This document shows positions 12,948 through 30,599 of a stretch of 64,000 nt of DNA, piece by piece. The stretch covers positions 1,612,001 through 1,676,000 of the forward strand of contig NZ_LR134289.1 in NCBI RefSeq assembly GCF_900636535.1, given 5' to 3'. The notes beneath the pieces were generated by a model that saw only the letters and a program-made list of their open reading frames with translations, was not told where the DNA came from and did no database searches. The position numbers and the translations under genes are program-made. This stretch comes from Chryseobacterium gleum. GTDB taxonomy: Bacteria; Bacteroidota; Bacteroidia; Flavobacteriales; Weeksellaceae. Every line of letters begins with the position of its first letter. The stretch's first letter is position 1.

Positions 12948-14042
12948 ATGAAAAACAATTTTCTCAAATTATTCTTTGTATTAATGACCACCAGTGTTTT
13001 TTCACAGGTCGGTATTAATACTCAGACACCAAAAGCCACTTTTGAAGTGGTCGGAAAGCCGGACGACGCGAATCATTTTGATGGTATTATTCCACCCCGT
13101 ATTACAGGGGATCAGATCTCTGCAAAATCATTCTCTACTGCTCAGAAAGGGGCATTAATCTTTGTGACATCACCAGCTACTAATTTGGTGGGACAGGCGG
13201 CTCATATCGAAAAATCGGGCTTATATTGTTTCGACGGCCAGCAATGGATTCCTGTTTTGCAAAGCGATCCTTTAGAAATCGTCGCACTCAGAGGCAACAC
13301 TTCCTCGGTTGAGTTGGTGGTGAAAAATAGTTTGAAACTTGATTTTGACCAAAAGGAAAATTATATCCTGGGAAAATCAAGAAGCCCCATCACAGGCGAA
13401 TACAACTCTATTCTAGCTACCGATGCCAATATTACATCAGGAAAAGGTAACTCTGCCAGCGCTTATGCCATGTCCCAGGGAGAAGTTACCGGGAAATTGA
13501 ACTATGGCGCTGGTGTATCAGCATTGAATGGAATTGCAAATAGCGTAATTTCAGGAAGCCGGAATATAGGGATAGGCGCCGGAGCCATGTCATACATTAC
13601 TTCCGGAAATGATAATATATCGATCGGGTATTTATCGGGAACCGGGAACAGGACAGGCTCTAATAATGTGTTCATTGGAGCTGGTGCCGGAAGCCCCGCA
13701 ACAGGAAACAGAAGTGTCAGCAATAAGTTAGCTATACATTCCACCCCCGTAACAACAAGCTCAACCAGCTTTTGGGACAGTATTACCAATAATTATACGG
13801 ATTATAAATTTGCGTTGATCTCGGGGGATTTTTCTGAGCGATGGCTCAATATTAATGGTAAGCTAAGCGTGACACCATCACAAATGCCTAATGCAGATGG
13901 TGATCCGGCATATACCAAGAAAGTAGTTGCCAAAGCAGACGGTTCATTTGGGTTCGCCACAGAACTGATTCCTGCGCCACCTTCTAGCGGAACCTATATC
14001 CTTAAAAGTGTGAATGGCATTCCCAGCTGGAGTGTCCCATGA
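12948..14042 (+). CDS. Secreted tail-fibre or adhesin-like protein, coupled to the mobilization genes
   Basis: From ATG 12948 the protein has about 364 residues and a signal peptide (LKLFFVLMTTSVFSQ). An in-frame ATG at 12924 would add eight residues that fit a signal poorly. The N-terminus repeats the VGINT...GIIPPRITGDQ region of the upstream gene. Residues around 180-260 carry Gly/Asn-rich short repeats such as IGIGAGAMSYITSGNDNISIG and NNVFIGAGAG, as in trimeric adhesin heads and phage fibres. The stop overlaps the start of the next gene in an ATGA, so translation of the two is probably coupled. That places a surface protein directly in the relaxosome operon. A role in contact with recipient cells is an inference. 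Confidence 0.7.
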   Translation: MKNNFLKLFFVLMTTSVFSQVGINTQTPKATFEVVGKPDDANHFDGIIPPRITGDQISAKSFSTAQKGALIFVTSPATNLVGQAAHIEKSGLYCFDGQQWIPVLQSDPLEIVALRGNTSSVELVVKNSLKLDFDQKENYILGKSRSPITGEYNSILATDANITSGKGNSASAYAMSQGEVTGKLNYGAGVSALNGIANSVISGSRNIGIGAGAMSYITSGNDNISIGYLSGTGNRTGSNNVFIGAGAGSPATGNRSVSNKLAIHSTPVTTSSTSFWDSITNNYTDYKFALISGDFSERWLNINGKLSVTPSQMPNADGDPAYTKKVVAKADGSFGFATELIPAPPSSGTYILKSVNGIPSWSVP

Positions 14043-14404
14043 AGCAGGAGGGAAGTAGAAGTTCTGAAGTGATCTTTTTCAGGATCAAACTGGAAAGAAA
14101 GGCTGACTGGAAAAGAACGTGCAGAGAAAGAAACATCTCCCTGACCAGCCTGATTATCGATTCGGTGGAGAATAGACTGATGGATGATGAAAGAAGAAAA
14201 GTCCTGAACTTCATCGAAAAGCAGGATAACATCTTTGCCAGGATCGAAACCAATATCAACCAGGTGGCAAAGCTGGTTAACGGACAGAAGAACATTTCGG
14301 AAAAACAACTGGAATTATTTTCGAAACAACTCTCCGAGGTACAGAAGCTTAAAGCACAGCAAAACAAGATGTTTGAAAACATATACGCATTGCTTTCAAA
14401 ATGA
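14039..14404 (+). CDS. MobA-like relaxosome accessory protein
   Basis: This 121-residue basic protein starts with SSRSSEV-like residues and FFRIKLERKADWKRTC, followed by RNISLTSLIIDSVENRL, a ribbon-helix-helix-like DNA-binding pattern typical of small mobilization proteins of Bacteroidota. The C-terminal half is a predicted coiled coil (RIETNINQVAKLVNGQ onward). It overlaps its upstream neighbour by four bases and the relaxase gene downstream by four bases, giving tight translational coupling. It probably binds the transfer origin and recruits the relaxase. The origin itself was not located, but it often lies near such genes. Confidence 0.75.
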   Translation: MKQEGSRSSEVIFFRIKLERKADWKRTCRERNISLTSLIIDSVENRLMDDERRKVLNFIEKQDNIFARIETNINQVAKLVNGQKNISEKQLELFSKQLSEVQKLKAQQNKMFENIYALLSK

Positions 14405-15858
14405 TCGTCAAGCTTATGAAGCCAGCGGGAAATCATTTCCCTGGAATCAATTACAATGATAAGAAGGTAGAAAAAGGAAAAGGCGAACTGATGCTGATGA
14501 AAAACTTCCCTTCATTTATCAATAAAGACGGTGACAAGCAACAGGTAAGGGATTATTTAAAAGCGATATCCAAAAGTACGAAAGTACAAAAACCGCAATT
14601 CCATGCTGTAATCTCCACTAAATTTCAGGATCATACCAAAGAAGAGCTCACAGAGATCAGTGAAGATTTTATGAATAAAATGGGTTATGGGGAACAGCCT
14701 TACATAGCAGTTTTTCACAATGATACTGAGAACAATCACATCCATATTGTTTCCACAAGAGTAGATAAGCAGACCGGAAAAAAGATTGATGACAGTTACG
14801 AAAAGCTAAAGGCGCAAAAAGCTTTGACCAGGGTGATAGAAAAACTATATGGAATTAATGAGAAGGAAAAATTAGATAAACTCTTGAACTATAAAATTGG
14901 CTCTTTTCAGCAACTTAGGACTTTGCTTAACAGAAATGGTTATCAACTTAGCGAAAACACAAATGATGGAAGATCCGTTACCATTTCAAAAAACGGCATA
15001 GTACAACGAAGGTTCTCAGCTGATCAAATTGTTTTCAGCAATAAAATGAACGAGAAACGGGTAAAGCAGATCAGAGCCATTTTTTCAAAGTACAAAGGGC
15101 TGTATTCTAATAGAGTATTCAGGGTTGATGACTATAGAAAGCAGGAAGCCATGCTTCCGGAGGAAAAGCACAAAGATCATTGGAAACCGGAAATAGAATT
15201 TGAAAGCGAGCTTCAGAAAAAACTGAGGGACCTCTTCGGAATTGATGTCGTATTTCATCATAAGGATGGCAACAAACCTTTTGGTTATACATTGATCGAT
15301 CACAAGACAGGCGCAGTTTATAAAGGCGGTGAAATCATGAAAATGGGTAGCTTATTTGAATTCACCTCGGCAATAATGAATAAAAGACTTTTTGAGCAGT
15401 TGAAAGATTACAGCATTCCCAATGCTGAAACCAAAAACGTACTGCTGAAATATTTGAAAGCAACCTATCCTGAAAATGAACTGAGCGATTATATGCTGTT
15501 TGACAATAAAAAACTGAAAAACAAAGAAATATTCAATAGGATCAGGAATGATGTAAAACAATATCTCAAAACCCAGGGTAAATATGATGTAAGCCTGGTG
15601 AGATCAGAGGACGGAAAATATTATGCTGTTCATTCCAAGCTGCATTTTATCGGAGAACTGCAATTGTTGATTGGCGAACAACAGTATCAAAAGTTTCTGA
15701 ATCCGAAAATTAAAAGTGAAAAGCTGGCCGAAAGTAACACCGAAAAGGAATTTAAACAGGCCGTCAATGAAATGCTTTTTGAATGGCAGAATAGCTCAGG
15801 CGGAGCAAAAGACCTGGTGGAGGATGAGCGGAAAAAACGGAAGAAAAAAAAGAGATAA
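14401..15858 (+). CDS. Relaxase (MobB-like mobilization nuclease)
   Basis: This 485-residue protein nicks and carries the transferred strand. The N-terminal third is a relaxase domain: KPAGNHFPGINYNDKKVEKG, then QFHAVIST, and the metal-binding histidine motif NNHIHIVSTRVD with His113 and His115. This pattern fits relaxases of Bacteroidota conjugative elements. The remaining 300 residues are helical and poorly conserved, and the protein ends in a very basic tail (RKKRKKKKR) that may bind DNA. Its start overlaps the accessory gene in an ATGA. The ParA gene begins about 60 bases downstream. The catalytic tyrosine could not be assigned by eye. Confidence 0.85.
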   Translation: MIVKLMKPAGNHFPGINYNDKKVEKGKGELMLMKNFPSFINKDGDKQQVRDYLKAISKSTKVQKPQFHAVISTKFQDHTKEELTEISEDFMNKMGYGEQPYIAVFHNDTENNHIHIVSTRVDKQTGKKIDDSYEKLKAQKALTRVIEKLYGINEKEKLDKLLNYKIGSFQQLRTLLNRNGYQLSENTNDGRSVTISKNGIVQRRFSADQIVFSNKMNEKRVKQIRAIFSKYKGLYSNRVFRVDDYRKQEAMLPEEKHKDHWKPEIEFESELQKKLRDLFGIDVVFHHKDGNKPFGYTLIDHKTGAVYKGGEIMKMGSLFEFTSAIMNKRLFEQLKDYSIPNAETKNVLLKYLKATYPENELSDYMLFDNKKLKNKEIFNRIRNDVKQYLKTQGKYDVSLVRSEDGKYYAVHSKLHFIGELQLLIGEQQYQKFLNPKIKSEKLAESNTEKEFKQAVNEMLFEWQNSSGGAKDLVEDERKKRKKKKR

Positions 15859-15917
15859 ACGAGGTGCGTTCGATTGGGCCACCCGGAAACGAAATAGGCA
15901 GCAAAAAAACAAAAGCG

Positions 15918-16568
15918 ATGATCATAACATTTGGAACACAAAAAGGAGGAACTGGTAAAACCACGCTTGCGATTGCTTTTGCCAATTATATTTCGGGAAT
16001 GTCTGAAAGAAAGGTTAAAGTTTTCGATTTTGATTTTCAGAAATCTTTCTGTCATAAATGGCGAGAAGACGAGGAATCAGATCTGCCGAAGCTTTATGAT
16101 GTAGAGATCATCGATGAGGACAACGAGCAGCCGTTCTCGGACTTTGAACATCTTATTGAAATGAAGGAAAGTGAAGATGTCCATCTTTTTGACCTGGCTG
16201 GAACCTTAGATGCGCGTTATAGTGATCTACTGATCTACAGTGATTTTATCGTAATCCCGTTTGAATATTCCAATGTCTCCGCTAAATCAACCCTTGTGTT
16301 TATCAATTTTTTAGGATTGCTCGAAAGCCAGGCAGAACGGATATTCATACGGTCGAAATACGATAAAGGCTATAAATACCAGAACCAGGAAGGTATGGAT
16401 GCTGAGATCAGCAAATACGGAATACTGTTGAAAAGTCCTGTATTCAAAAGGAACTGTCTTCAGACCATTGATACAAGAAAACTGACTTATGAACAGAAAT
16501 ATGCTGTGAAAAATCCATTTATGGAATTGATTAATCACATTAACCAAAAGCTGGAAATTAACCTATAA
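15918..16568 (+). CDS. ParA-family ATPase of the transfer region (TraA-like)
   Basis: From ATG 15918 the protein has 216 residues and starts MIITFGTQKGGTGKTT. The deviant Walker A motif, with its signature lysine Lys9 and Lys14, lies at residues 9-16. VKVFDFDFQKSF corresponds to the A' motif and HLFDLAGT to Walker B. The open frame reaches upstream to 15864, but those extra residues do not match the family. Bacteroidota conjugative elements place a ParA-like gene called traA at the head of the tra operon, where it may position the relaxosome or help partition the circular form. No ParB gene is obvious next to it. Confidence 0.85.
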   Translation: MIITFGTQKGGTGKTTLAIAFANYISGMSERKVKVFDFDFQKSFCHKWREDEESDLPKLYDVEIIDEDNEQPFSDFEHLIEMKESEDVHLFDLAGTLDARYSDLLIYSDFIVIPFEYSNVSAKSTLVFINFLGLLESQAERIFIRSKYDKGYKYQNQEGMDAEISKYGILLKSPVFKRNCLQTIDTRKLTYEQKYAVKNPFMELINHINQKLEINL

Positions 16569-17283: not shown

Positions 17284-17607
17284 ATGATGAAAAACACGCA
17301 CAAACGTTACCTGACAACAAAAAAATTATTCACCGCAGCATTGCTACTGCTAGCCGTTACACCAATGCTGGCGCAAGGCGGTGCAACAGCCATTTCAAAC
17401 GCAGCCAATGATATTAAAGACTATTGGGACCCGATAAAGCTGATCTTAAAAGCCGTCGGCGGATTGGTTGGTTTTATTGGCGGTCTGAGAGTGTATAATA
17501 AATGGACCAACGGCGACCAGGACGTCAACAAAGAAATCCTGGGTTATGGCGGTGCCATGATCTTCCTGATCGTTGTTCCGGAATTCGTAACCTCCTTTTT
17601 TGCCTAA
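17284..17607 (+). CDS. traE: TraE, DUF4134 inner-membrane pilin-like protein
   Basis: This 107-residue protein has a signal-like first membrane segment (LFTAALLLLAVTPMLAQ) ending in an AQG cleavage-like site. It continues with DIKDYWDPIKLILKAVGGLVGFIGGLRVYNKW, the hallmark of the DUF4134/TraE family, and a second membrane segment (GGAMIFLIVVPEFVTSFF). TraE proteins resemble VirB2-type pilin subunits in size and topology. Two adjacent ATGs (17284, 17287) are possible starts. The gene ends just before the TraF start. A 110-base gap upstream may contain a promoter, but no clear box was found. Confidence 0.85.
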   Translation: MMKNTHKRYLTTKKLFTAALLLLAVTPMLAQGGATAISNAANDIKDYWDPIKLILKAVGGLVGFIGGLRVYNKWTNGDQDVNKEILGYGGAMIFLIVVPEFVTSFFA

Positions 17608-17608
17608 A

Positions 17609-17923
17609 ATGGGATTCTACCTTTACAAGGGGCTGAAAAAGCCTCTTGTATTCTTCGGGCTTAAAGGCAAGTACATCATTTACGCCGTGGCAGTTATCGG
17701 CGCTGGCGTTGTTGCCGCCCTGGTACTATCCAAATTCGGATTGCTCGGCTCACTCCTGGGGCTTGCAACAACAGCCGGAGGTGTTTACCTGATCTTCAAA
17801 AGACAGGACAAATACGGTCTGTATAACAAGACCAAACACTTCGATCACATCTTCATTTTCCCAAAAAGACTAAACAATAATAAAATTTTAAAGAATGGCA
17901 ACAGCAAAAAAACAAGTATTTGA
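17609..17923 (+). CDS. traF: TraF, DUF4133 inner-membrane protein
   Basis: From ATG 17609, one base after the traE stop, the protein has 104 residues. It begins MGFYLYKGLKKPLVFFGLKG, the conserved start of DUF4133/TraF proteins, and has two membrane segments (YIIYAVAVIGAGVVAALVL and LLGSLLGLATTAGGVYLIF), followed by a basic cytoplasmic tail. This topology resembles VirB3 of type IV secretion systems, which works next to the VirB4 ATPase. The next gene, traG, overlaps its end by 29 bases, as often seen for VirB3 and VirB4 pairs. Confidence 0.85.
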   Translation: MGFYLYKGLKKPLVFFGLKGKYIIYAVAVIGAGVVAALVLSKFGLLGSLLGLATTAGGVYLIFKRQDKYGLYNKTKHFDHIFIFPKRLNNNKILKNGNSKKTSI

Positions 17924-20900
17924 CATTCCGTTCATCGGCTACGATTACGGAAAGGATTTCAATTGGGATTTTGACGTGCTGTTTGGACAATACGGCAATC
18001 CCATCATCGGGATCAGAATCAAAAACATCGTTCAGCAGTATTCTGCTGATCCGGACAATTACCTGGAATTTCACACCGTATTAAATCAGGTGGTCTCCAT
18101 TATAGGCGAAGGACGGATTGTTCAAAAACTGGATATATTCACTAAAAAGAAATATACTGCTGAGCCATCCACCCAATTCCTCCAGCAGAAATATTCAGAT
18201 CATTTTGAAGGCAGACTCTTCAAAACTATTGAGACCATTTTGCTCTTTACTGATATAGTCGACGACAAACTGAAAAAGAAAAACAAACATTACAATTTTT
18301 CCGAAAAGAGTTATAAGGAGCTTCGTGATAAATCTCAGAAGGTATTTATGCTGTTAAAGCAGAATGACTGCGAGCCTGAATTTCTGTTTGAGAAAGATTT
18401 TGAATATTACATTTCCGGAGTTTTGTCTATGCAGTTTTCTGAGATTCCCACTTTTGACAATATCAAAAGTACCAACGCGTACTTGCAGATCGGAAACCGC
18501 TGTGTCAAAAACATTTCCTATGTCGATGTGGAAAATATTGACCTTCCTTCTGAAATAGAGTCCTACTCTATTCTAGGAGGCAATGGAGCTGCCGCGGAAA
18601 CGGCCGTTGATAATTTTACCTTTATCAATGAGCTTGAAAACTATGAAACCATAGTTTACAATCAAGTCATAACGATTCCAATCCAGGCCCAGCAGCAAAG
18701 GGAGCTCGATAAGAAAAAGAAAAAACACGAAGGTGCAGCCAACAACTCGCCGTCCAATGCCATCATCGCAGAAGAGATCCAAACCTTGCTGCATAATATT
18801 GCCATTGACGGTCAGCTAGTGGTCAATGCTCATTTTTCCCTGATATTTTCAACAAACACTATGGAAGAAATGGAAGGAATCCAGTCCATGATTGAGAATA
18901 AGCTCTTCACAAAAGGGATTATCGTTTCAAAAAATGCCTACAACCAGATGGAGCTGTTTCGGGCAGCCATTCCGGGTAACGCCACAGAACTCAGGGAGTA
19001 CGATCTTTTCATGACGACAAGCGAAGCGGCCTTGTGTTTTTTTTTTAAAGAAAGTTATCCCGTGAATGAAGAATCTAACTTCTACCTGAGATTTACAGAT
19101 CGGCAGGGCGTTCCGTTAAAGGTTGATCCCGCTGATCTTCCAATGAAAACCGGGAGGATCAATAACCGAAACAAATTTGTTTTAGGACCATCCGGCTCCG
19201 GGAAGTCATTCCTGATGAACAATATTGTTGAGCAATACCTGACCTATAATTATGATGTGGTGATCGTAGATACCGGAGATTCTTATTCAGGAACCTGCAA
19301 ATATAAAGGCGGTAGATATATTCAATACACCGAAGAAAAACCGATCACGATGAATCCTTTTCTAATGGATAAAAAAGAGTTTAATATCGAGAAAATTGAA
19401 TTTTTAACCAACCTTATCTTCCTGATATGGCAAGGTCCGGATGCGACAGTATCGTCTGCACAGAAATCCATCCTGGATAATGTGCTGATGTCCTATTATC
19501 ATCAATATTTCAATTCAGGAACCGAATGGTATAACCATAAAACTTCAGAAGAGCTCATTCTTTATCTCAACAAGTACAATATTCACGAAGAAGATGTTTT
19601 TGCCGAATATGAGAGCGAGGTCCAGGAGCAACGAACGTATTATGATATTTTAGGAATTGCTTTCGATGCCAGCCCGGATGAAGTGAAAGAAGCAGGAAGA
19701 AAATTATTGAAATTCTATCATCCGGATAAGAATGCCAATAATCCTGACTATGACAGTGAACAATTCTACAAAGTTTACGAGGCTTACGAAACGTTGAATG
19801 ATATGGAGCGAAGAAAGATCTACGATGAAACACAACTCATCTTGATCAGATCTGCAGAAATTATTAAACATCCGGAGACGGCAGAAGATTGGAATGAATC
19901 GTTGAGAAAGGCAATTATCAAAAAGATCAAAGAACTTGAAGAAAAGTTGCCTGCCAAAGAGCTTTCCTTCAACGGATTCTATGATTACTGCGATAAATTC
20001 CTGCCGCTTTATCTTAATAATAAAAAGCACAACATTACGGAAAGAGAGTTCAATCTCAGGACGTTTTTGTTTGTATTGAGGGATTTTTATAAAGGCGGAA
20101 GATATGCGACCACATTGAATGAATCTGCCGATAATAAGCTGTTCGATGAAGCATTTATTGTCTTCGAAATCGACAACGTGAAGGACAATCCGAAATTGTT
20201 TCCGATCGTAACACTCATCATTATGGACACGTTTATTCAAAAGATGAGGCTACGTAAAGACCGAAGAAAAGCCCTCATCATTGAAGAGGCCTGGAAAGCG
20301 ATTGCCAGTAAGCTGATGGGCGGATATATTCTGTATCTCTACAAAACTGTAAGGAAATTTTGGGGTGAAGCCGTAGTTGTAACGCAGGAATTGGATGACA
20401 TCATTGGAAATGCCGTAGTCAAAGATTCCATTATCAACAATTCTGACACCTTTATCCTGTTAGACCAAACCAAGTTCAAGGACAATTTTGATCGCATAGC
20501 GTCTTTGTTATCGCTGAATAAAGTGGAGCAAAACAAGATCTTCACGATCAACAATCTCAACAATAAATTCGGCCGGAGCCGCTTCAAGGAATTTTACCTG
20601 AAGAGAGGTTCCAAGGGTGAGGTCTATGGCAATGAGGTGTCGCTTGAGCAGTATCTGACTTATACGACCGAGAAGCCTGAGAAATCAGCAGTTGAATATT
20701 ATGTGCAACAGTATGGCAATTATGACGAGGCTTTGGTAAAGATTGTCTCGGACTTAAAAGCCTTTGGCGACAGTCTTGAAAACCTGGTGTCTTTAGTGAA
20801 TTTGTACCAGAATCCTTTGGATCATAAAGTTGTCTCTTACTACCAAAGGATGAAGAAAAACCACCCAGGGAAAAATATTTTCAAGATCATCTCACAGGAA

Positions 20901-20969
20901 TTGGAAGACCTTGATATCAGCTTTTCGGAATTGATAACTAATAAAGACTACCAATATGACGAAGTTTAG
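17895..20969 (+). CDS. traG: TraG, VirB4-type conjugation ATPase with an inserted DnaJ domain
   Basis: This 1024-residue AAA-type ATPase powers assembly of the mating channel and DNA transfer. Walker A is GPSGSGKS at residues 431-438, and Walker B is ALIIEEAW with Glu797 and Glu798. Family members are usually about 830 residues long. The extra length lies between the two motifs. Residues 582-645 form a full J domain: YYDILGIAFDASPDEVKEAG, then the HPD motif at 609-611 within FYHPDKNAN, then the final helix ending RRKIYDE. J domains normally activate DnaK-type Hsp70 proteins, so this ATPase may recruit the host DnaK. The frame is intact. A T10 run at 19037-19046 is read correctly. The start overlaps traF. 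Confidence 0.9.
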   Translation: MATAKKQVFDIPFIGYDYGKDFNWDFDVLFGQYGNPIIGIRIKNIVQQYSADPDNYLEFHTVLNQVVSIIGEGRIVQKLDIFTKKKYTAEPSTQFLQQKYSDHFEGRLFKTIETILLFTDIVDDKLKKKNKHYNFSEKSYKELRDKSQKVFMLLKQNDCEPEFLFEKDFEYYISGVLSMQFSEIPTFDNIKSTNAYLQIGNRCVKNISYVDVENIDLPSEIESYSILGGNGAAAETAVDNFTFINELENYETIVYNQVITIPIQAQQQRELDKKKKKHEGAANNSPSNAIIAEEIQTLLHNIAIDGQLVVNAHFSLIFSTNTMEEMEGIQSMIENKLFTKGIIVSKNAYNQMELFRAAIPGNATELREYDLFMTTSEAALCFFFKESYPVNEESNFYLRFTDRQGVPLKVDPADLPMKTGRINNRNKFVLGPSGSGKSFLMNNIVEQYLTYNYDVVIVDTGDSYSGTCKYKGGRYIQYTEEKPITMNPFLMDKKEFNIEKIEFLTNLIFLIWQGPDATVSSAQKSILDNVLMSYYHQYFNSGTEWYNHKTSEELILYLNKYNIHEEDVFAEYESEVQEQRTYYDILGIAFDASPDEVKEAGRKLLKFYHPDKNANNPDYDSEQFYKVYEAYETLNDMERRKIYDETQLILIRSAEIIKHPETAEDWNESLRKAIIKKIKELEEKLPAKELSFNGFYDYCDKFLPLYLNNKKHNITEREFNLRTFLFVLRDFYKGGRYATTLNESADNKLFDEAFIVFEIDNVKDNPKLFPIVTLIIMDTFIQKMRLRKDRRKALIIEEAWKAIASKLMGGYILYLYKTVRKFWGEAVVVTQELDDIIGNAVVKDSIINNSDTFILLDQTKFKDNFDRIASLLSLNKVEQNKIFTINNLNNKFGRSRFKEFYLKRGSKGEVYGNEVSLEQYLTYTTEKPEKSAVEYYVQQYGNYDEALVKIVSDLKAFGDSLENLVSLVNLYQNPLDHKVVSYYQRMKKNHPGKNIFKIISQELEDLDISFSELITNKDYQYDEV

Positions 20970-21609
20970 CATGCTATTTTTAGGGTTCTGTGGATTGCTA
21001 TCCGCTCAGAATACCTACATCGATCCAACGGTAACCGCTGCAATGATTCTTTATTCGGAAAATCTGAAAGCCAAGCAGAATGAGGTTATTGATGAAACCT
21101 CGAAGTTAAAAGATGCGCAGACCTGGGTGGGAACGCAAATGGTTGCTGCCAATGACATTCAGAATAAAATACTGAAAGGCTTAAAAGAGGTTTCCGGAAC
21201 ATTACAAAACGGTATCCAGGTTAAGGAAATTTATTCCGAATTAAACAAATGCTATACGTATTCCTCGCAAGTGGTCCAGTTGGCATCACAGCATCCGCAG
21301 TATGCCATTTTTGGGGTAAAAGCTTCACAGAAAACCTATGAGCAAAGCCTGAAGATCGTAACGGATGTATCGGATATTTTGGCTTCGGGTGAGCTGAACT
21401 TGGCTACTGCCGGAGACCGCTACAAGATCCTGCACAACATTTCAGGGAATGTGAAAAACCTAAAGCTGTGGCTGTTGGCCATTAAGCTGCGACTGGAAAA
21501 AGCCAACAGGCTGGGATTCTGGAATTCCATTAATCCTTTTGCCGGATACATTAATACCGATAAGGCCATTGTGGATGATATTATGAACCGCTACAAACGG
21601 AATTTTTAA
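20956..21609 (+). CDS. Secreted tra-region protein 1 (TraI position), family ending in D-x-x-[IV]-V-x-[DN]
   Basis: This 217-residue protein starts inside the end of traG (14-base overlap) and has a short signal peptide (MLFLGFCGLLSAQ). The mature protein is almost all helical, with a coiled-coil-like first half (LYSENLKAKQNEVIDETSKL). It ends with a conserved-looking tail, NTDKAIVDDIMNRYKRNF. The same type of tail closes the next three genes, so the four are probably distant paralogues. CTnDOT-type elements carry one secreted helical protein, TraI, between TraG and TraJ, and here the place is taken by four. Periplasmic and part of the mating apparatus is the likely role, by position only. 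Confidence 0.65.
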   Translation: MTKFSMLFLGFCGLLSAQNTYIDPTVTAAMILYSENLKAKQNEVIDETSKLKDAQTWVGTQMVAANDIQNKILKGLKEVSGTLQNGIQVKEIYSELNKCYTYSSQVVQLASQHPQYAIFGVKASQKTYEQSLKIVTDVSDILASGELNLATAGDRYKILHNISGNVKNLKLWLLAIKLRLEKANRLGFWNSINPFAGYINTDKAIVDDIMNRYKRNF

Positions 21610-21616
21610 ACTCAAA

Positions 21617-22306
21617 ATGATGAAAAAGAACCTGATCTGTGCCCTGTTCCTTGCTGCAGCTTATTGCCTGTTGACATCATCAGGTGGTGGTTCTACGCCA
21701 GCGTGGCAACAGGAAAATGTTTCTTTCCCGATGATGGATCTTGAGATTAATGCTACAATGAAGGAACACGATCGGCAGAAAGAGATGCGGCAAAAGCAAA
21801 CACTCAATGCGTCAGTAGAAACGGCTAACCAATCACAATGGAAAAACTTTAAGGAAAAAGTCACCAAAATCCAGGACAGGCTTCGTATCGTGTCATTTGC
21901 CATACAGGCGATTCCGGCAGGAGTAGCAGTGAGCAGGGAAATCACCAAGATAACGAATAACCAAACTGCGATCATTAATGAGATCAATACTGCGCCTTAT
22001 TCCATCATTGCAGTTTTACCTTCACAGGTGCAGTTTGTAGATGATCTTCAAATGACCTTACGATTATTGACAGGAATTATTTTGTCATACGGAGCGATCA
22101 ACCAGATGGAACAATCGGAGCGCAAGATCTTACTGGACTATGCTTTGGGAGAGGTCAAAGCGCTGAGCAGAAATTCCACGCATATGCTTTTAAAAATAAA
22201 GGATATAAAAGCTAAGGTTTTACGGAACAAAAGAACTTTCCAATACTATGTCAACAGGGACCGGCAGGTCGTGCAAGACATCATGAACAACATCAAATCC
22301 TTTTAG
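21617..22306 (+). CDS. Secreted or membrane tra-region protein 2, helical paralogue
   Basis: This 229-residue protein has an N-terminal hydrophobic segment (LICALFLAAAYCLL), followed by a Gly/Ser stretch that could be a lipoprotein or signal junction. Long helices follow, with a hydrophobic hairpin in the centre (IVSFAIQAIPAGVAVS). Its tail, NRDRQVVQDIMNNIKSF, aligns with those of the neighbouring genes. It lies 7 bases after protein 1 and 2 bases before protein 3. It is the most diverged of the four. A structural role in the periplasmic channel is inferred from position. No enzyme motif is visible. Confidence 0.6.
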   Translation: MMKKNLICALFLAAAYCLLTSSGGGSTPAWQQENVSFPMMDLEINATMKEHDRQKEMRQKQTLNASVETANQSQWKNFKEKVTKIQDRLRIVSFAIQAIPAGVAVSREITKITNNQTAIINEINTAPYSIIAVLPSQVQFVDDLQMTLRLLTGIILSYGAINQMEQSERKILLDYALGEVKALSRNSTHMLLKIKDIKAKVLRNKRTFQYYVNRDRQVVQDIMNNIKSF

Positions 22307-22308
22307 TT

Positions 22309-22974
22309 ATGAAGAAAATATTCACCTTCAGTATTGTTTTGTTTTCGATTGCGGGAGTTCAGAGCCAGCAGATCGTAATTAACGACAAGTTGCTGTCACA
22401 GATCACGGTCAATCATGGGGTACGTTTAGCCAGTGAGCAGGCATTCCTGGATTCTTACAAAAAGCAAAAAGAATTATACGAGGATATTAAAAACAAAACA
22501 GCACAGGTCATTGCGATACAGGAATACATCTATCAGCAGTTGAAAAATGTCAATTCTGCATTAACCCAGAGTAAAAAATTGATGTACCTCTACCAGTATC
22601 TAGGGAAGATTGTCAGCAATTCCAATAAGATGCTGGACCTGTCCGCACAGCATCCTGAATATGCTATGCTGGTTTCAAAATATTATGTTGAAATAGGAAA
22701 ACAGGTCGTCAAGCTCCAGCAGGAAGTTGCACAGGATATTATGAATGAAGATAAGGATTTCCTGATGGATTCAATGGATCGGGAAATGCTTATTGAAAAA
22801 GTGTTTACACGGGTAAGAAATATTCACGGCAACATTCTCTATATCATTTTAAGACTGGAAAATGCCAAGAAGATCCCATACCTGTATCAGGTTCCGGTTC
22901 TAAGGAATTACATCAATATCGATAGGGCAATCGTCGGAGATATTATTACTAAATACAAATACATCTTCAATTAA
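22309..22974 (+). CDS. Secreted tra-region protein 3, helical paralogue
   Basis: This 221-residue protein has a clear signal peptide (IFTFSIVLFSIAGVQSQ) and a helical mature part. AQHPEYAMLVSKYYVEIGKQ is strikingly similar to SQHPQYAIFGVKASQKTYEQ in protein 1, so the relationship is visible beyond the tail. It ends NIDRAIVGDIITKYKYIFN. It is separated from its neighbours by 2 to 4 bases. Together with protein 1 it supports a gene duplication within the tra operon. The function is unknown and presumably structural in the mating pair apparatus. Confidence 0.65.
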   Translation: MKKIFTFSIVLFSIAGVQSQQIVINDKLLSQITVNHGVRLASEQAFLDSYKKQKELYEDIKNKTAQVIAIQEYIYQQLKNVNSALTQSKKLMYLYQYLGKIVSNSNKMLDLSAQHPEYAMLVSKYYVEIGKQVVKLQQEVAQDIMNEDKDFLMDSMDREMLIEKVFTRVRNIHGNILYIILRLENAKKIPYLYQVPVLRNYINIDRAIVGDIITKYKYIFN

Positions 22975-22978
22975 AATT

Positions 22979-23809
22979 ATGGAAACATTAATAAAAAAAA
23001 TACAGCTATTACAACTTCTGTTAGCTTCCTTCCTGATATTCGGACAAGTCAGTGTTAAGAGGCTGAACGATCCTTCCATCGTTGCCCAGCACAAGCGAAT
23101 GACTTTTGAAAGCTGGGGAGACTGGCGGCCATATCCGAAATATTTCCTAGGCATCCAGACCAATTTTGCTTATGCGACGGTTTGGGGCATATGGGCTCCC
23201 AAGATCAACAGGGATTATAAAGATGGAGAAGATATCCGCCCCTTAAAACCTACCGGAGAACAAAATCTACGATTCGCACAGCTCAAGTTCCAGGAAGAAG
23301 AAGCCAAGAAGATCAAGGCTGCCTCCGATACGATCTACAAAAGAAGCGTTCAGGACCTGGCGCACTGGACTTCGGCCACAGTCGATGCAGATCCACTTTG
23401 GCTGCTGTATTACAAACGAATGCTCAAACCTGTTACCGAATTTCCGGACAACCCGCAGAATTTCATCGAATGGCGGCTGAAAGACCAACAGACCTATGAA
23501 ATGCTCAATACAACCGGCACCTTAAAAAGATTACAGGAGGAACTGGATATGATCAAGGAAAAGTACTCATTGTCACGCTCGATGGATATGCCAAGGGGAA
23601 AACGCTTCATTATGTATCATGAAACGATAATCCGTTGGCGCAAATTTGTTCAGGAACTAAGGAAGTACAATAATAAAACAACGCTGCTTTTGGATTACAA
23701 AAACATCCTGAACAGTCATCTATCCACGGCATTGCCCAATCAATGGACGCCTGCTTCAGACAAAGGCATTGTTCAAAATGTAATGCAGAAATACAAAAAC
23801 AGATATTAG
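22979..23809 (+). CDS. Secreted tra-region protein 4, larger paralogue
   Basis: This 276-residue protein begins with a hydrophobic signal (LQLLLASFLIFGQ). Its N-terminal half differs from those of the others and is tryptophan-rich (TFESWGDWRPYPKYFLG and ATVWGIWAPKINRDYKDG). The C-terminal half is helical and ends PASDKGIVQNVMQKYKNRY, the same kind of tail as the three preceding proteins. It starts 4 bases after protein 3 and is followed 2 bases later by traJ. The Trp-rich segment suggests it has gained a separate binding surface. No catalytic motif is visible. Confidence 0.6.
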   Translation: METLIKKIQLLQLLLASFLIFGQVSVKRLNDPSIVAQHKRMTFESWGDWRPYPKYFLGIQTNFAYATVWGIWAPKINRDYKDGEDIRPLKPTGEQNLRFAQLKFQEEEAKKIKAASDTIYKRSVQDLAHWTSATVDADPLWLLYYKRMLKPVTEFPDNPQNFIEWRLKDQQTYEMLNTTGTLKRLQEELDMIKEKYSLSRSMDMPRGKRFIMYHETIIRWRKFVQELRKYNNKTTLLLDYKNILNSHLSTALPNQWTPASDKGIVQNVMQKYKNRY

Positions 23810-23811
23810 CT

Positions 23812-25047
23812 ATGAATAGAAAACCAACATTAATTTTATGCCTTCTGGCTATATTACTGCCGATAATGGGTTTTTGCCAGACTGACGGCGATTACAGTAA
23901 CCTGCTTCAATTTCTAAAGGGTGATGGTGCTTTTGAAAAATGGTTTATGGAGGTCTTTACCAAACTGGATACCAATGTTCAGGACAATGCACAAGGCTCA
24001 GCATTAGTAGGAAGGGCGATTGGAGGATTGGGAGCATTGATGTATCTCGGCTATATGGGATGGCAGATGGCTGCCGGAGACCGTGAGTGGGAAATCACCC
24101 CGATGCTTAAACCGATACTTATTGGGTTTACCCTCGTCTATTGGACGGGATTTGTCAATCTGCTACAGGCGCCGTTTGAAGCCATCGCCGAACCCGGAAT
24201 TGCTATTTTCAGTGATATAGAATCCGAGGTCAATGACCTGAGGATACAGCGATTCAAAAAACAACAACAATTATTGGATGCGGTCATTAAACTCAATGCA
24301 GAAGAAGATGCCAAACAGGAGGTAATTAACAATACTTCAAAAGATGCGGATGATTCCTGGTTTGATATCAGTGAGGGGATTGATAAACTGTTACAGCCTA
24401 TCAAGGAATGGCAGATCAGGATGCAGTTCCAGATGCAGAAACTGGTCGCCGAAGTGATCGAGTTTGTCTGCCTTTCCATCCTTAGAATTTGCGTCTATCT
24501 CATCTTTTTCATTCAGAAGATCTGGGCTTATATTTTAATTATACTGGGACCCATCGCTGTCGGGATGGCACTGGTACCGGGATTTGAAAACTCCCTATAC
24601 AGCTGGGTTTCTAAATTCATCAATATTAATCTCTATACGTTTGTGGCGTACACGATCATTAACATCGGTCAGCAGCTTATTGCTTCCGGTTACACCATGG
24701 AAATAGAACGATACGATACCTTACTGACCAACGGAACAGTCACCAACCTGGATGCTCTAATGGTCTACGTCAGCAATTCCGGAATGATCTATAACCAGCT
24801 CTTTACCTGTGTCGCCTACATCGTGACTGGTACTGGGGTATTAATGACCCCAACCATTGCAGACAGTATTGTTTCTGCTGGCGGAGCAGGTGCCATGACG
24901 AAAATGAAAAATGCAGCCGGAAAGGTGGCGAGCACTGCCAAAACTGCTGTAATGGCGGTAAAAACAGGAGGCGTATCTGCTGTAAAATCTGCAGCAGCGG
25001 GTTCTGCATCCGGAAGGGTGGAAAAGGCAATGAAAAATGGAAAATAA
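23812..25047 (+). CDS. traJ: TraJ, polytopic inner-membrane channel protein
   Basis: From ATG 23812 the protein has 411 residues. A signal-like segment (LILCLLAILLPIMGFCQ) is followed by several membrane helices: GGLGALMYLGYMGWQMA, PILIGFTLVYWTGFVNLL, a long pair at FVCLSILRICVYLIFFIQKI, and AYILIILGPIAVGMALVPG. Two more lie toward the end. The central soluble part is charged, and the Ala/Gly/Lys-rich C-terminus is probably cytoplasmic. Size and topology fit TraJ of Bacteroidota conjugative elements, the counterpart of VirB6. It follows the four secreted proteins and precedes traK. An upstream extension to 23743 has no signal and is disfavoured. Confidence 0.8.
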   Translation: MNRKPTLILCLLAILLPIMGFCQTDGDYSNLLQFLKGDGAFEKWFMEVFTKLDTNVQDNAQGSALVGRAIGGLGALMYLGYMGWQMAAGDREWEITPMLKPILIGFTLVYWTGFVNLLQAPFEAIAEPGIAIFSDIESEVNDLRIQRFKKQQQLLDAVIKLNAEEDAKQEVINNTSKDADDSWFDISEGIDKLLQPIKEWQIRMQFQMQKLVAEVIEFVCLSILRICVYLIFFIQKIWAYILIILGPIAVGMALVPGFENSLYSWVSKFININLYTFVAYTIINIGQQLIASGYTMEIERYDTLLTNGTVTNLDALMVYVSNSGMIYNQLFTCVAYIVTGTGVLMTPTIADSIVSAGGAGAMTKMKNAAGKVASTAKTAVMAVKTGGVSAVKSAAAGSASGRVEKAMKNGK

Positions 25048-26084: not shown

Positions 26085-27287
26085 ATGAAGAAAATTAATT
26101 TCAAACAGAAAAAATACGTGCTGCCGCTTTTGGCGCTGCCTTTCCTGCTTCTTTTCGGCTATGTCGGGGTGCAGCTTACTAAAGAGAATAAACCCAAAGA
26201 CAAACCCAAAGAGCTTTCCCTTTCACTGGGAGAAACCAAGGATTCTATTATGAATAAGAATGACGCTTACGACGCATTTTTCAAAAAAGATGACAACCGG
26301 ACAATGCTCGAAGGACTGGATAAGGAACAAGATAGCTTACTAAGCTATGATGATCAGTTGTCATTAGCACAAAAGAGAAAAATTGATTCCCTTAAAGCGG
26401 TGTCATCAAGGCAGAGCCGATATCAGGCCAAAGCAAACCCTTCATCATATTATGATCCAAAGCAGCATAATGAGGATAAAGATTTCAAAAGGTCTTCTGA
26501 AATTATCAGGATGCTGAATGATAAATATTATGGCAAATCAGAAACCAGCCACTCAACTGAAAATTCTAAAGGGACAAACAATGTCCAACCTGACCCTGTT
26601 AAATACCTGAAGCAGCAAATGCTCGTGATGGATTCCCTGGAAAAAGCCAGAGATCCAGAATATCAAAGCAAATTGGCAGCGGAACAAAGGCTCAAAGCCA
26701 ATAAGGAAAAGATGGAAGAGTTTCTGAATTCCACATTTAATGTCAGCAAATCAGGAATTAACAGCGTGTTCAATGCTTTTTATAAAGAAAAGGAAAACAG
26801 CTTCATCAAGGCTGTTATTGACGAAAACAATAAAGGTTTTCTCGGCAGCAGGATAAGGTTCCGCTTATTGGAAGACATTTTTGTGGGCAAGCGGAAAATC
26901 AGTAAAGGCTCCATACTTTATGGACAGATCTCCGGATTTTCGATGCAAAGAGTTGATCTTAAAATTATATCTGTATTTACCAACGGTGAAATTTTTCCTG
27001 TCAATCTCTCCATCTACGATGTGGACGGAATGAAGGGTCTCTATGTACCGCAAAGCGTTTTCCGGGATATGATCCGGGAAATGGGAAGCAACTCGGTTCA
27101 GGGAACCCAAATGGATGTGGGCGGACAGGGATTCTTTACAAGCATCGGTTCCAAATTATTCACTTCCACCTCTAAATCAATAGCCAATCTAATCAAAACC
27201 AATAAAGCGAAACTAAAATACAACTCTTATGTATTCCTGATTGACGAAAAACAACTTAAAGATTCGCAAAACCAGCAAAATAAATAA
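26085..27287 (+). CDS. traM: TraM, VirB10-like core channel protein
   Basis: This 400-residue protein has a short cytoplasmic start, one membrane helix (VLPLLALPFLLLFGYVGVQL) and a long charged, probably flexible periplasmic segment with Asp, Lys and Ser runs. The C-terminal domain of about 170 residues is conserved in Bacteroidota TraM proteins: FIKAVIDENNKGFLGSRIRF, then RKISKGSILYGQISGFS and NLSIYDVDGMKGLYVP. This domain occupies the place of VirB10, which spans both membranes in other systems. The gene ends 4 bases before traN. Confidence 0.85.
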   Translation: MKKINFKQKKYVLPLLALPFLLLFGYVGVQLTKENKPKDKPKELSLSLGETKDSIMNKNDAYDAFFKKDDNRTMLEGLDKEQDSLLSYDDQLSLAQKRKIDSLKAVSSRQSRYQAKANPSSYYDPKQHNEDKDFKRSSEIIRMLNDKYYGKSETSHSTENSKGTNNVQPDPVKYLKQQMLVMDSLEKARDPEYQSKLAAEQRLKANKEKMEEFLNSTFNVSKSGINSVFNAFYKEKENSFIKAVIDENNKGFLGSRIRFRLLEDIFVGKRKISKGSILYGQISGFSMQRVDLKIISVFTNGEIFPVNLSIYDVDGMKGLYVPQSVFRDMIREMGSNSVQGTQMDVGGQGFFTSIGSKLFTSTSKSIANLIKTNKAKLKYNSYVFLIDEKQLKDSQNQQNK

Positions 27288-27291
27288 TATA

Positions 27292-28158
27292 ATGAAAACC
27301 TTATTGTACAGCCTATTACTATTGACAACGCAAATTGTAACAGCGCAGACTGCGACTACTGAACAAATTATTTCTGAACTGCCGGAACTGGAGATCACGG
27401 AGGGCATCAATCTTCATATGATCTCTCCGGAGCCCATTCAGTATGTTGATCTATCTACCGATAAACTGACGGGCGATCTCCCGGCTAACAATATCGCCAG
27501 AATTAAAATTACCGACAACACTATCTCCGAAAAGGATAAAAAGAAACAAAACATTTCTTTTTTCAGCGGAGATACGGTGGGAATCATCACTGTTGTCGGG
27601 CAGTCCTTCATTGCACAGTACAAAGCAGTGTATAGAAACCAGGATAATCTCAATACGATAACCAATATCCACATTCAACCAGAAGCGATGCAGCCCATCG
27701 AGTTCGATAAAATGACTTTCTCAAACGGTGAACTGAGGAAATTTGCAATGGATATTATTCAGAATAAGGCTGAAAAAAATCCGCTCAGGAAAGAAAAAAA
27801 TCTTAATCTCAGCATGCAGCTGAATAACGTCTACGTCGTTGGCGACTATATTTTTCTTGATATGACTTTTAAAAACAGTTCCAAGCTGAGCTATGACCTG
27901 GAAGACCTCAAATTCTCCATTGAGGATAAAAAGATTCATAAAGCGACCAACAATCAAAGCATCGAGATGACACCTGTCTTCCGGCTAAATCCTCAAAAGC
28001 ACTTCAGGAAAAACCTCAGAAATATATATGTATTTAAAAAGTTCACCTATCCGAACTCCAAGGTTATGGTGATACGCTTAATTGAGGAACAGCTCTCCGG
28101 AAGGACTATTGAAATGAAGATCAATTATTCAGATATTCTTAAAGCTGACACTTTTTAA
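27292..28158 (+). CDS. traN: TraN, DUF4138 VirB9-like outer-membrane core protein
   Basis: From ATG 27292 the protein has 288 residues and a signal peptide (LLYSLLLLTTQIVTAQ). The beta-rich mature part contains LHMISPEPIQYVDLSTD near the start and QLNNVYVVGDYIFLDMTFKN later, both typical of TraN/DUF4138 proteins of Bacteroidota conjugative transposons. TraN works with TraM at the outer membrane, like VirB9 with VirB10. An upstream in-frame extension to 27241 would overlap traM and has no signal, so the ATG at 27292 is preferred. An unknown membrane protein follows after 9 bases. Confidence 0.85.
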   Translation: MKTLLYSLLLLTTQIVTAQTATTEQIISELPELEITEGINLHMISPEPIQYVDLSTDKLTGDLPANNIARIKITDNTISEKDKKKQNISFFSGDTVGIITVVGQSFIAQYKAVYRNQDNLNTITNIHIQPEAMQPIEFDKMTFSNGELRKFAMDIIQNKAEKNPLRKEKNLNLSMQLNNVYVVGDYIFLDMTFKNSSKLSYDLEDLKFSIEDKKIHKATNNQSIEMTPVFRLNPQKHFRKNLRNIYVFKKFTYPNSKVMVIRLIEEQLSGRTIEMKINYSDILKADTF

Positions 28159-28167
28159 AACTTAATT

Positions 28168-28605
28168 ATGGAGGTGTCTATTAGTTTAGAGCAAATGGTG
28201 AATGCTTTTTTTTATCTGATAATGGTGACTTCTGTAATTGTTTATGCCATACTGATTAATTCAATGATTAAAGGAAACAAGGAACGTGATGTCTTCCTTG
28301 ATAGATTTAAACTGAAATATCAGGAGCAGCAAAATCAATTAAAGAACCTTGATCAAGATTACAGATATCTAAGAAAATTTTATGAATCAATTGAGAAGTT
28401 TAGCGAAGAAGCCAGCCGGTTTTATATTGTTGAGAAGACGGAAAAGCGAGCACAAGAATTAGTTGATCAGTTAAGTCGGTTGGACGAGAGCCTTATAGAA
28501 ATGCAGAAACAACATGAAAACATGTTTAAAAAACAGCAGAAGCTGCATCGTGATTTACTTACGGAACACAAATTACTGAACGAATACTTTAATAACTATT
28601 CCTAA
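28168..28605 (+). CDS. Uncharacterised membrane protein with long coiled coil, between traN and coupling protein
   Basis: This 145-residue protein has one N-terminal membrane segment (VNAFFYLIMVTSVIVYAILI), then about 110 residues that are strongly charged with heptad spacing (LKNLDQDYRYLRKFYESIEK and SRLDESLIEMQKQHENMFKK), a likely long cytoplasmic coiled coil. It sits between the last channel gene and the coupling protein, sharing a stop/start base with the latter. Its layout would suit an adaptor between channel and coupling protein. I recognise no family. Confidence 0.6.
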   Translation: MEVSISLEQMVNAFFYLIMVTSVIVYAILINSMIKGNKERDVFLDRFKLKYQEQQNQLKNLDQDYRYLRKFYESIEKFSEEASRFYIVEKTEKRAQELVDQLSRLDESLIEMQKQHENMFKKQQKLHRDLLTEHKLLNEYFNNYS

Positions 28606-30599
28606 TGCAAGAACAACAACATCAGATCAAGATCTACGGATTCCTGCAAAAGGCAGTCTATGCAGTCGTTGCACTGGATTGTACTTCGCTTTTTTACATG
28701 AGTGCTAATGTCCCGGTGGTCTCCAATCTATTGAAGAACTTCTCGAAAATGAGCTTTATTTATCCACCGGTAAATGCTAAAATAGCCACCTTTATTCTGA
28801 TCGGGCTTGTTGCCATCGGGACCAGGGCAAAGAAAAAGAAAGATCTCAATATCGCCACGGAAATTGTCGTTCCAATGGTAACTGGATTAATGATGATGTT
28901 GGCGTCACTAATTTGGCAGGAAGAAGCAGGGAATACAAAACTTCCAAAAGTACTTCCCGGACTCAACCTATTCCAAGTCATCTATGCGGTTCTTTCTTTT
29001 ATAGGAGCTGTTATCCTTCAGATGGGAGCTGATAGCATTTCTAAACTAGTACAGCAGAAAATAGGAAAAGATAGATGGAACATTGTGGAAGAAAGTTTTG
29101 ACCAGAATAAGGAGATGGTTAACACTGATACAAGTATCAATATTCCATATTTTTTCAGATATAATAATAAAACTTATAATGGTTATATCAATATTGATCC
29201 TTTTAGGGGTACTATTGTAATCGGAGTACCCGGTTCTGGAAAATCTTTTGGAGTGATCAATCCGGCGATTCGTCAGATGATCGCTAAAGGTTTCTGCCTC
29301 TGTATTTATGATTTTAAATTTCCGGACCTGGCGCAGATTGCCTATTATCATTATCTATTGAAAAAAAGTAAGCAATCTGATTACAATTATAGTTTCCACA
29401 TCATCAACCTGAATGAAGTCGAAAGATCAAAAAGGGTTAATCCTTTTCATAAAAAGTATATCCAGACTTTGGCAGAAGCTCAGGAAATGGCAGAATCAAT
29501 GGTTTCCTCACTCCAAAAAGGAGGAAGCAGCTCCGGTGGAGGATCAGACGCGTTCTTTACCCAATCAGCAATCAACTTTCTGTCATCCTGTATTTATTTC
29601 TTTGCCACGCTTGAAAACGGAAAATATTCGGACCTGCCACATATTCTTTCATTTATGAACCGCAGCTATCAAGAGATCTTTGATACGTTGTTTACCAATG
29701 AAGAAATTGGCTCATTGCTTTCACCCTTCAAAACGGCTTACGACAACAAAGCTTTTGATCAGCTGGAAGGGCAGATTGGAACTTTAAAGATCTTCCTTTC
29801 AAGGTTGGCTACCAAAGAAAGCTTTTGGGTTTTTTCGGGCGATGAAGTTGAATTGAAAATTACCGACAGAGAAAATCCGTCCATTCTTATTTTAGCATCT
29901 GATCCCGGAACACAGGATATCAATTCTGCTTTATATTCTTCAATTCTGAATAGAACGCTGCGCCTGATCAATTCGAAGCATAATCTCCAGGGAGGAATTA
30001 TTGCAGATGAGTTCCCAACCATTTATATCCATAAAATCGATAATGTGGTTGCAACGGCTCGGAGCAACAGGGTTGCCGTGTTACTTGGCCTACAGGAAAT
30101 TCCACAGCTAAGACAGTTCTATAAAAAGGAGGTGGCGGATACCATTTCTGCCATTGTCGGAAATATAATTTCAGGTTCCGCCAGAGATAAAAATACATTG
30201 GATTGGCTGGAAAAACTATTCGGAAAGATCAAACAGAAATCGTATTCCCAGTCCATATCACAACAGGGAACGACGACCAGCATCAATGAGAAGATGGATA
30301 ACATGATACCTGCAGGAAAGATTGCAGCGTTGAAGACCGGTGAAATGGTAGGGATGATTGCACAGGGTGAATTAAACGATACAGATGAATATAAAACATC
30401 TGCGATTCACGGAAAAATTAATCTGGATATGAAGACCATCAAAAAAGAGAAACATAATTACGTTGCAATGCCGGTCTATTATTCATTTCTGGATAAAAAA
30501 GGTAAGAACCGTAAAGAGGAAATACTGATGTCCAATTTCAGGAGGATCAATCGGGAAGTCGAACTTATTGTCAATGAACATATAAAAACAGCATCATGA
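28605..30599 (+). CDS. Type IV coupling protein (VirD4/TraD-like)
   Basis: This 664-residue ATPase links the relaxosome to the channel. At least two N-terminal membrane segments are visible (KIATFILIGLVAIGTRA and VIYAVLSFIGAVILQMG). The motor domain has Walker A GVPGSGKS at residues 207-214 and Walker B GGIIADEFPT with Asp468 and Glu469. Typical coupling-protein text lies between and after them: VVATARSNRVAVLLGLQEI and IVGNIISGSA. Bacteroidota elements often call this gene mobC or traG by position. It overlaps the peptidase gene downstream by four bases. Confidence 0.9.
   Translation: MQEQQHQIKIYGFLQKAVYAVVALDCTSLFYMSANVPVVSNLLKNFSKMSFIYPPVNAKIATFILIGLVAIGTRAKKKKDLNIATEIVVPMVTGLMMMLASLIWQEEAGNTKLPKVLPGLNLFQVIYAVLSFIGAVILQMGADSISKLVQQKIGKDRWNIVEESFDQNKEMVNTDTSINIPYFFRYNNKTYNGYINIDPFRGTIVIGVPGSGKSFGVINPAIRQMIAKGFCLCIYDFKFPDLAQIAYYHYLLKKSKQSDYNYSFHIINLNEVERSKRVNPFHKKYIQTLAEAQEMAESMVSSLQKGGSSSGGGSDAFFTQSAINFLSSCIYFFATLENGKYSDLPHILSFMNRSYQEIFDTLFTNEEIGSLLSPFKTAYDNKAFDQLEGQIGTLKIFLSRLATKESFWVFSGDEVELKITDRENPSILILASDPGTQDINSALYSSILNRTLRLINSKHNLQGGIIADEFPTIYIHKIDNVVATARSNRVAVLLGLQEIPQLRQFYKKEVADTISAIVGNIISGSARDKNTLDWLEKLFGKIKQKSYSQSISQQGTTTSINEKMDNMIPAGKIAALKTGEMVGMIAQGELNDTDEYKTSAIHGKINLDMKTIKKEKHNYVAMPVYYSFLDKKGKNRKEEILMSNFRRINREVELIVNEHIKTAS

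Follow-up and report, generated by a model that had tools for sequence, protein, structure and literature searches.

A conserved J domain inside the VirB4-type conjugation ATPase TraG and its possible coupling to host DnaK

To our knowledge, there is no settled account of how conjugation machines carry a folded relaxase, or highly hydrophobic pilins, across or out of the membrane. The window, i.e. the whole stretch of 64,000 nucleotides of Chryseobacterium gleum DNA analyzed here, raises this question in a particular form, as it encodes a conjugation ATPase, TraG, with a J domain lying between its two Walker motifs. We therefore asked whether this J domain is genuine, how widely and how strictly it is kept, and whether it might bring the host Hsp70, DnaK, to the transfer motor.

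The J domain within TraG and its insertion site

The gene and the parts of its product referred to below are as follows (all on the + strand).

17895..20969, + strand: traG, VirB4-type conjugation ATPase with an internal J domain, 1024 aa
19185..19208, + strand: Walker A, GPSGSGKS, aa 431-438 of TraG, read in the sequence
19515..19961, + strand: insert, absent from J-less TraGs, at about aa 541-689, consisting of an N-terminal helical arm, the J domain and a C-terminal helix
19635..19829, + strand: J domain, aa 581-645 of TraG (Pfam DnaJ, E = 4.3e-19; the insert model matches J domains)
19719..19727, + strand: HPD tripeptide, aa 609-611 of TraG, read in the sequence, the alignment and the codons
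20271..20288, + strand: Walker B, ALIIEE, aa 793-798 of TraG, read in the sequence

The window's TraG is a VirB4-type ATPase of a Bacteroidota conjugation system. It was matched by the TraG P-loop family PF19044 (Pfam: E = 1.2e-128, 429.7 bits against a cut-off of 25.8) and by the TraG subfamily TIGR03783 (NCBIfam: E = 9.9e-141, 470.2 against a cut-off of 261.55), and is the same ATPase as the TraG of Bacteroidota conjugative transposons. Both Walker motifs are intact, and the AlphaFold model of the whole protein has the VirB4 fold and fits R388 TrwK/VirB4. Identity to the VirB4 proteins of R388 (TrwK, 7o41/8rtd) and Thermoanaerobacter (4ag5/4ag6) is 14–19%. The gene sits in a transfer operon together with genes for MobC-like, relaxase, TrbL-like, TraM, TraN-like and coupling proteins, and the neighbours found on two plasmids are likewise those of Bacteroidota conjugative transposons (DUF4134, DUF4133, TraK, TraM and coupling protein).

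The original prediction had placed a complete J domain at residues 582–645 of TraG, with HPD at 609–611, between Walker A (431–438) and Walker B (793–798) of a gene that stays in frame; these coordinates proved exact, and a single open frame of 1024 aa spans the J domain and both Walker motifs. Pfam DnaJ (PF00226) aligned to residues 581–644 over profile positions 1–63 of 63 (E = 4.3e-19, 68.8 bits, cut-off 27.8), and residues 582–645 (19638–19829) read YYDILGI...KIYDE. Solved J domains matched the insert by sequence (best E = 1.8e-13), and its AlphaFold model has the J fold when compared with them (e.g. 5nro_B: TMt 0.84, 62 residues at 1.6 Å), with HPD placed between the helices 594–607 and 621–635. 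The J domain in TraG is therefore genuine, far beyond chance similarity. When it was compared by short BLAST with three J proteins of the host (a fourth, weaker one, L007, was left out of this comparison of origins), the closest was a 230-aa protein, L003 (C1:1690334-1690522), at 53% identity, whose family is, on this resemblance, a possible candidate donor of the domain.

Two more J-TraG genes lie elsewhere in this genome, at C1:5060244-5063309 and at C1 near 2333301 (L062/L067, L004), one of which is full length and 89% identical, whereas the other is split into two frames; perhaps the genome holds three related conjugative elements or remnants of them.

Aligned J-less Bacteroidota TraGs have a gap where the window's TraG has its J domain. 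Seven such copies from other families (L038-L043 and L063, open frames of 812–854 aa) match up to residue 540–544 and resume at 689–690, with 0 to 15 bases between both matching parts, so that about 145 residues, comprising the helical arm, the J domain and the following helix, are missing from them in the alignment. One of them, L038, matches a Sphingobacterium protein with full identity across the query; among the best 120 of its 7961 relatives, none carries a Pfam DnaJ tag and most are about 810–860 aa long. In L169, L171 and L172 (from Mucilaginibacter and Bacteroides plasmids), L044 and L045, the same site is filled by other material, and it is, judging by these alignments, a general insertion site. 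In TrwK, the corresponding position falls in the stretch from 549 to 587, where about 37 residues lie between its two aligned parts, too few to leave room for a J domain. We take this stretch to be the all-alpha subdomain of VirB4, and the J domain was probably inserted at that subdomain, between Walker A and Walker B.

Distribution, conservation and loss of the J domain

The fusion is not a one-off. Relatives had been thought possible, and the best 120 of the 309 proteins found with the stretch 560–680 were all tagged Pfam DnaJ plus TraG; two UniRef names of J-TraGs begin 'J domain-co' and 'Chaperone prot'. A survey of its breadth among TraG homologues, proposed as a check, recovered J-TraG in at least ten genera, mainly Weeksellaceae among the named genomes (Chryseobacterium, Epilithonimonas, Cloacibacterium, Kaistella, Elizabethkingia, Empedobacter, Halpernia, Weeksella and Riemerella), and also in a Moheibacter metagenome bin and at four Capnocytophaga loci. 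The TraG match spans the J coordinates in about 93 of 296 genomes of the window's family (manual count). J-spanning matches were found in 20 of 395 genomes sampled from the order and 2 of 395 from the class, all within the window's own family; since two candidates per genome were scored in these two samples under a strict E-value limit, the absence of J-TraG outside the family is soft. Restriction to one family was ruled out by the four Capnocytophaga loci and by a Sphingobacterium plasmid with a J domain. Plasmid records with a TraG match numbered 97, two of them at at least 60% identity, Sphingobacterium faecium pWB8, in which the J domain was read directly, and Chryseobacterium sp. JJR-5R p1, in which it was deduced through L079, at the same place; three of the remaining 95 plasmid TraGs were read, all without a J domain.

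A lack of HPD conservation among homologues was to have spoken against the original prediction, and HPD turned out to be kept in nearly all relatives examined. It is present in 80/80 named-genome loci retrieved with six TraG peptides, none of them from the J domain (these are the best 80 of 111 confirmed loci and close relatives; 79 were read by script and L159 by eye). An alignment of 268 rows, each 580 aa or longer and together representing 264 different sequences, has HPD in 260. The eight rows without it are four remnants of the J domain (P0121, P0122, P0123 and L066), two fillers (P0195 and P0199), the full-length P0128, with HPG in its place, and the N-truncated P0067, with YPD. Even with an HPD-less TraG as the query, 95 of the 101 new proteins kept for alignment carry HPD (drawn from the best 120 of 7982 matches). 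Among 61 dereplicated full-length J-TraGs (less than 93% identical), H609, P610 and N613, the Asn of HPDxN, are each present in 61/61 and D611 in 60/61, and Y583, Y619, A630, Y631, L634, R640 and Y643 are also invariant; this set omits P0121, P0122, P0123, P0195, P0199 and L066, as well as every protein shorter than 960 aa, and its counts favour intact J domains because some sequences came from the search on the J stretch itself.

These residues stand out within a domain that evolves comparatively fast: mean entropy was 0.96 bits in the J domain versus 0.26 and 0.34 in the ATPase core, a ratio of about three. The codons of HPD vary synonymously (55 loci, including some duplicates: His CAT 49, CAC 6; Pro CCG 19, CCT 17, CCC 15, CCA 4; Asp GAT 33, GAC 22). 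Values of pN/pS, of which only the order is meaningful because pS is near saturation (0.74–0.84), were 0.23 for the J domain, 0.37 and 0.34 for its linkers, 0.17 for the N-terminal domain and 0.08–0.09 for the ATPase, while helix II and the HPD loop as a whole (595–615) gave 0.26, no tighter than the rest of the J domain (0.23). Within helix II, position 598 is basic in 61, 602 in 61 and 603 in 60 of the 61 J-TraGs, and acidic residues occupy 599 in 50 and 595 in 55, the host DnaJ having D at the equivalent of 595.

Numbering of E. coli DnaJ was transferred by our own alignment from HPD = 33–35, with one extra residue before F624. According to a study based on 5NRO, the J residues contacting DnaK are D35, K26, Y25, H33 and F47 (PMC13012618). 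Four of these five have kept equivalents in J-TraGs, namely D611, R602, H609 and F624 (F in 56, Y in 5), and the equivalent of Y25 is G (48) or F (13) in the 61 sequences. At three helix II positions described in the literature as co-evolving, K26 stays basic, and K23 (599) and R19 are mostly acidic in J-TraGs; the R19 equivalent is acidic in the host's own DnaJ too. A working, somewhat specialized J domain would show such a pattern of conservation.

The remnant and filler copies form a side branch. Three of the four remnants (P0121, P0122, P0123 and L066, the last at L066:1114-4104) were scanned and gave weak Pfam DnaJ matches over nearly the whole profile (E = 0.03–0.14), and in P0195 and P0199 the site is occupied by low-complexity filler of no relation to the J domain; all keep open frames of 983–1003 aa. 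In a tree built from columns outside the insert, the J-bearing, remnant and filler TraGs formed one clade apart from eight J-less ones (support 100), within which the remnant and filler TraGs made up one subclade (support 99), whereas support for a single group of J domains with HPD was 60; this tree was a quick one with long-branch warnings, and it does not fix the exact place of the subclade. The simplest account of these sequences would be one gain of the J domain, followed in one lineage by loss of HPD and then of the domain. The J domain has thus been kept in most lineages seen and is dispensable in one, since one subclade has lost HPD and part of that subclade the whole domain, and it is not universally required in TraG. 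Type IV (pseudo) J-domain proteins, such as Pam16 as presented in a review (PMC13254874), likewise have a J-like stretch without HPD; the remnants resemble them in this respect, whereas the window's copy has HPD intact. The remnant TraGs, which lack HPD, and the filler TraGs make up a natural loss series.

A separate feature of traG is an uninterrupted run of ten Ts at 19037–19046 (codons 381–384). The three Phe codons 382–384 are all TTT in 35/35 dereplicated full-length J-TraG genes, compared with an average TTT share of 0.62 at 27 other invariant Phe columns, and a scan for Walker A yielded 95 J-TraG loci, in 89 of which the longest T run is exactly ten. Ten Ts occur also in the J-less Mucilaginibacter copy L172, nine in two other J-less copies and no such run in the J remnant L066. 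At the run, some copies, including one belonging to the window's genome, break into two overlapping frames, and 13 of 14 J-TraG proteins of 586–699 aa lack the N-terminal part and start at positions equivalent to residues 332–438 of the window's TraG, some of them possibly cut by contig ends. The run looks like a candidate slippery or phase-variable site, through which an N-terminal part of TraG, about 384 aa long, could be made as a separate product; no report of slippage in conjugative transposons was found in the openly licensed literature.

Host DnaK as the putative partner and alternative roles

Features of the element around traG, possible clients of a chaperone among them, are listed below.

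14039..14404, + strand: MobC-like mobilization protein (PF05713, E = 5.8e-6)
14401..15858, + strand: relaxase, possible client (PF03432, E = 1.2e-23)
17284..17607, + strand: DUF4134 protein, candidate VirB2-like pilin and possible client (PF13572, E = 1.2e-25; TrbC/VirB2 below cut-off, E = 0.009)
17600..17923, + strand: DUF4133-like protein, directly 5' of traG (PF13571, E = 0.00045, below cut-off)
23743..25047, + strand: TrbL/VirB6-like protein (PF04610, E = 1.8e-5, just below cut-off)
26085..27287, + strand: TraM (PF12508, E = 6.3e-36)
27241..28158, + strand: TraN-like DUF4138 protein (PF13595, E = 4.4e-47)
28605..30599, + strand: coupling protein, T4CP (PF10412, PF02534, PF12696)

Directly 3' of the relaxase gene lies a gene for a ParA/VirC1-like ATPase (15864–16568), and both plasmids, that of Sphingobacterium and that of Chryseobacterium, have an annotated ParA family gene in this position. 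Three successive genes 3' of traG (20956, 21617 and 22309; span 20956–22974) are distant paralogues (about 26–27% identity, best E about 1e-21), whose products are probably exported, judged by their N-terminal ends; the fourth gene after traG (22979) has no clear relation to them.

No Hsp70, GrpE or further DnaJ was detected in the 25 element ORFs scanned besides TraG (Pfam, E 0.01), so that an element-encoded Hsp70 partner was rejected for these ORFs. Since the window's genome encodes one full-length Hsp70 and the scanned ORFs of the element none, the Hsp70 recruited by TraG would be the host DnaK, and we consider it likely from the sequence features above that TraG binds or recruits it. Somewhat less firmly, yet as the reading we prefer, a working J domain in this VirB4-type ATPase would recruit DnaK to the transfer motor for clamping of a polypeptide there: the J domain would draw host DnaK in its ATP-bound form to the channel's cytoplasmic mouth and trigger the ATPase of DnaK, whereupon DnaK would clamp a polypeptide handled at this mouth. 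Points against this reading are the loss of HPD in the side clade and its change in P0128 and P0067, the G or F in place of Y25, the mostly acidic residue at 599, the lack of tighter constraint on 595–615 than on the rest of the J domain, and the presence of other inserts at the same site in other TraGs. The original prediction, in which DnaK might assemble, unfold or recycle channel parts or the relaxase, is partly supported. The likeliest clients would be the relaxase, kept in an unfolded state for its transfer, or the hydrophobic pilin during its handling at the membrane; even taken together, these two are a tentative guess, and DnaK may possibly act in assembly of TraG itself instead. A bolder version strikes us as possible rather than probable: the VirB4 motor would be an Hsp70-coupled machine in which each TraG subunit places host DnaK on whatever protein belongs to the transferred complex. 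Transfer would then depend on the chaperone state of the host, and TraG would be to bacteria what Pam18 and Sec63 are at protein-translocation pores.

The main rival to DnaK recruitment is that the J domain has ceased to work with Hsp70 and is now a module for docking or spacing, which binds another protein of the channel or relaxosome or supports the all-alpha subdomain. Lineages with an HPD-less remnant or filler still retain an open TraG of 983–1003 aa, the insertion site accepts several types of insert, pN/pS puts constraint on the J domain about threefold below that on the ATPase core, and pseudo-J domains without HPD such as Pam16 are described in the review (PMC13254874). A mere docking role gives, however, no evident structural reason for HPD to be among the best-kept residues of a fast-evolving domain, and conservation extends to the charged positions 598, 602 and 603 of helix II and to the equivalent of F47; we regard this alternative as rather unlikely.

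The main purpose of recruiting DnaK could also be regulation of TraG or sensing of the host's condition, with DnaK availability gating assembly or abundance of the motor. DnaK controls the replication proteins of some plasmids, and the same conservation pattern would be compatible with such a role; however, no regulatory partner was seen, and the location on the ATPase suits a role at the channel mouth equally well, so that we regard regulation as the principal function as improbable. Explaining the J domain as a chance resemblance, an assembly chimera or a neutral passenger is scarcely credible: the one point in favour is the degenerate side clade, where the domain decays, and such explanations are refuted by the DnaJ match (E = 4.3e-19), the occurrence in many independent genomes and two plasmids, and purifying selection.

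Recruitment of DnaK by TraG, the reading preferred here, has counterparts elsewhere. Sec63 is a class C J-domain protein that recruits Hsp70 at a translocation pore. In Pam18/Tim14, also of class C, the J domain is tethered to a transport machine and recruits Hsp70 to the channel, as described in the literature. TraG resembles both in that its J domain is attached to a transport machine, but differs in that the domain is built into the ATPase that drives a conjugation channel of bacteria and that Hsp70 recruitment there is proposed. As to the claim that no J-domain VirB4 had been described, we found no description of a J-domain VirB4/TraG in the openly licensed literature, where the DnaJ passages met concern unrelated Prevotella genes, and to this extent the claim stands; on the other hand, domain databases already tag the fusion automatically. 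TraG and the J domain are both known families, and it is their combination, its breadth and its constraint that are undescribed as far as we found.

Natural J-less, HPD-less and J-bearing TraGs provide a ready-made comparison set. If DnaK recruitment is true, a built-in Hsp70 recruiter would tie conjugative transfer to the proteostasis of the host.
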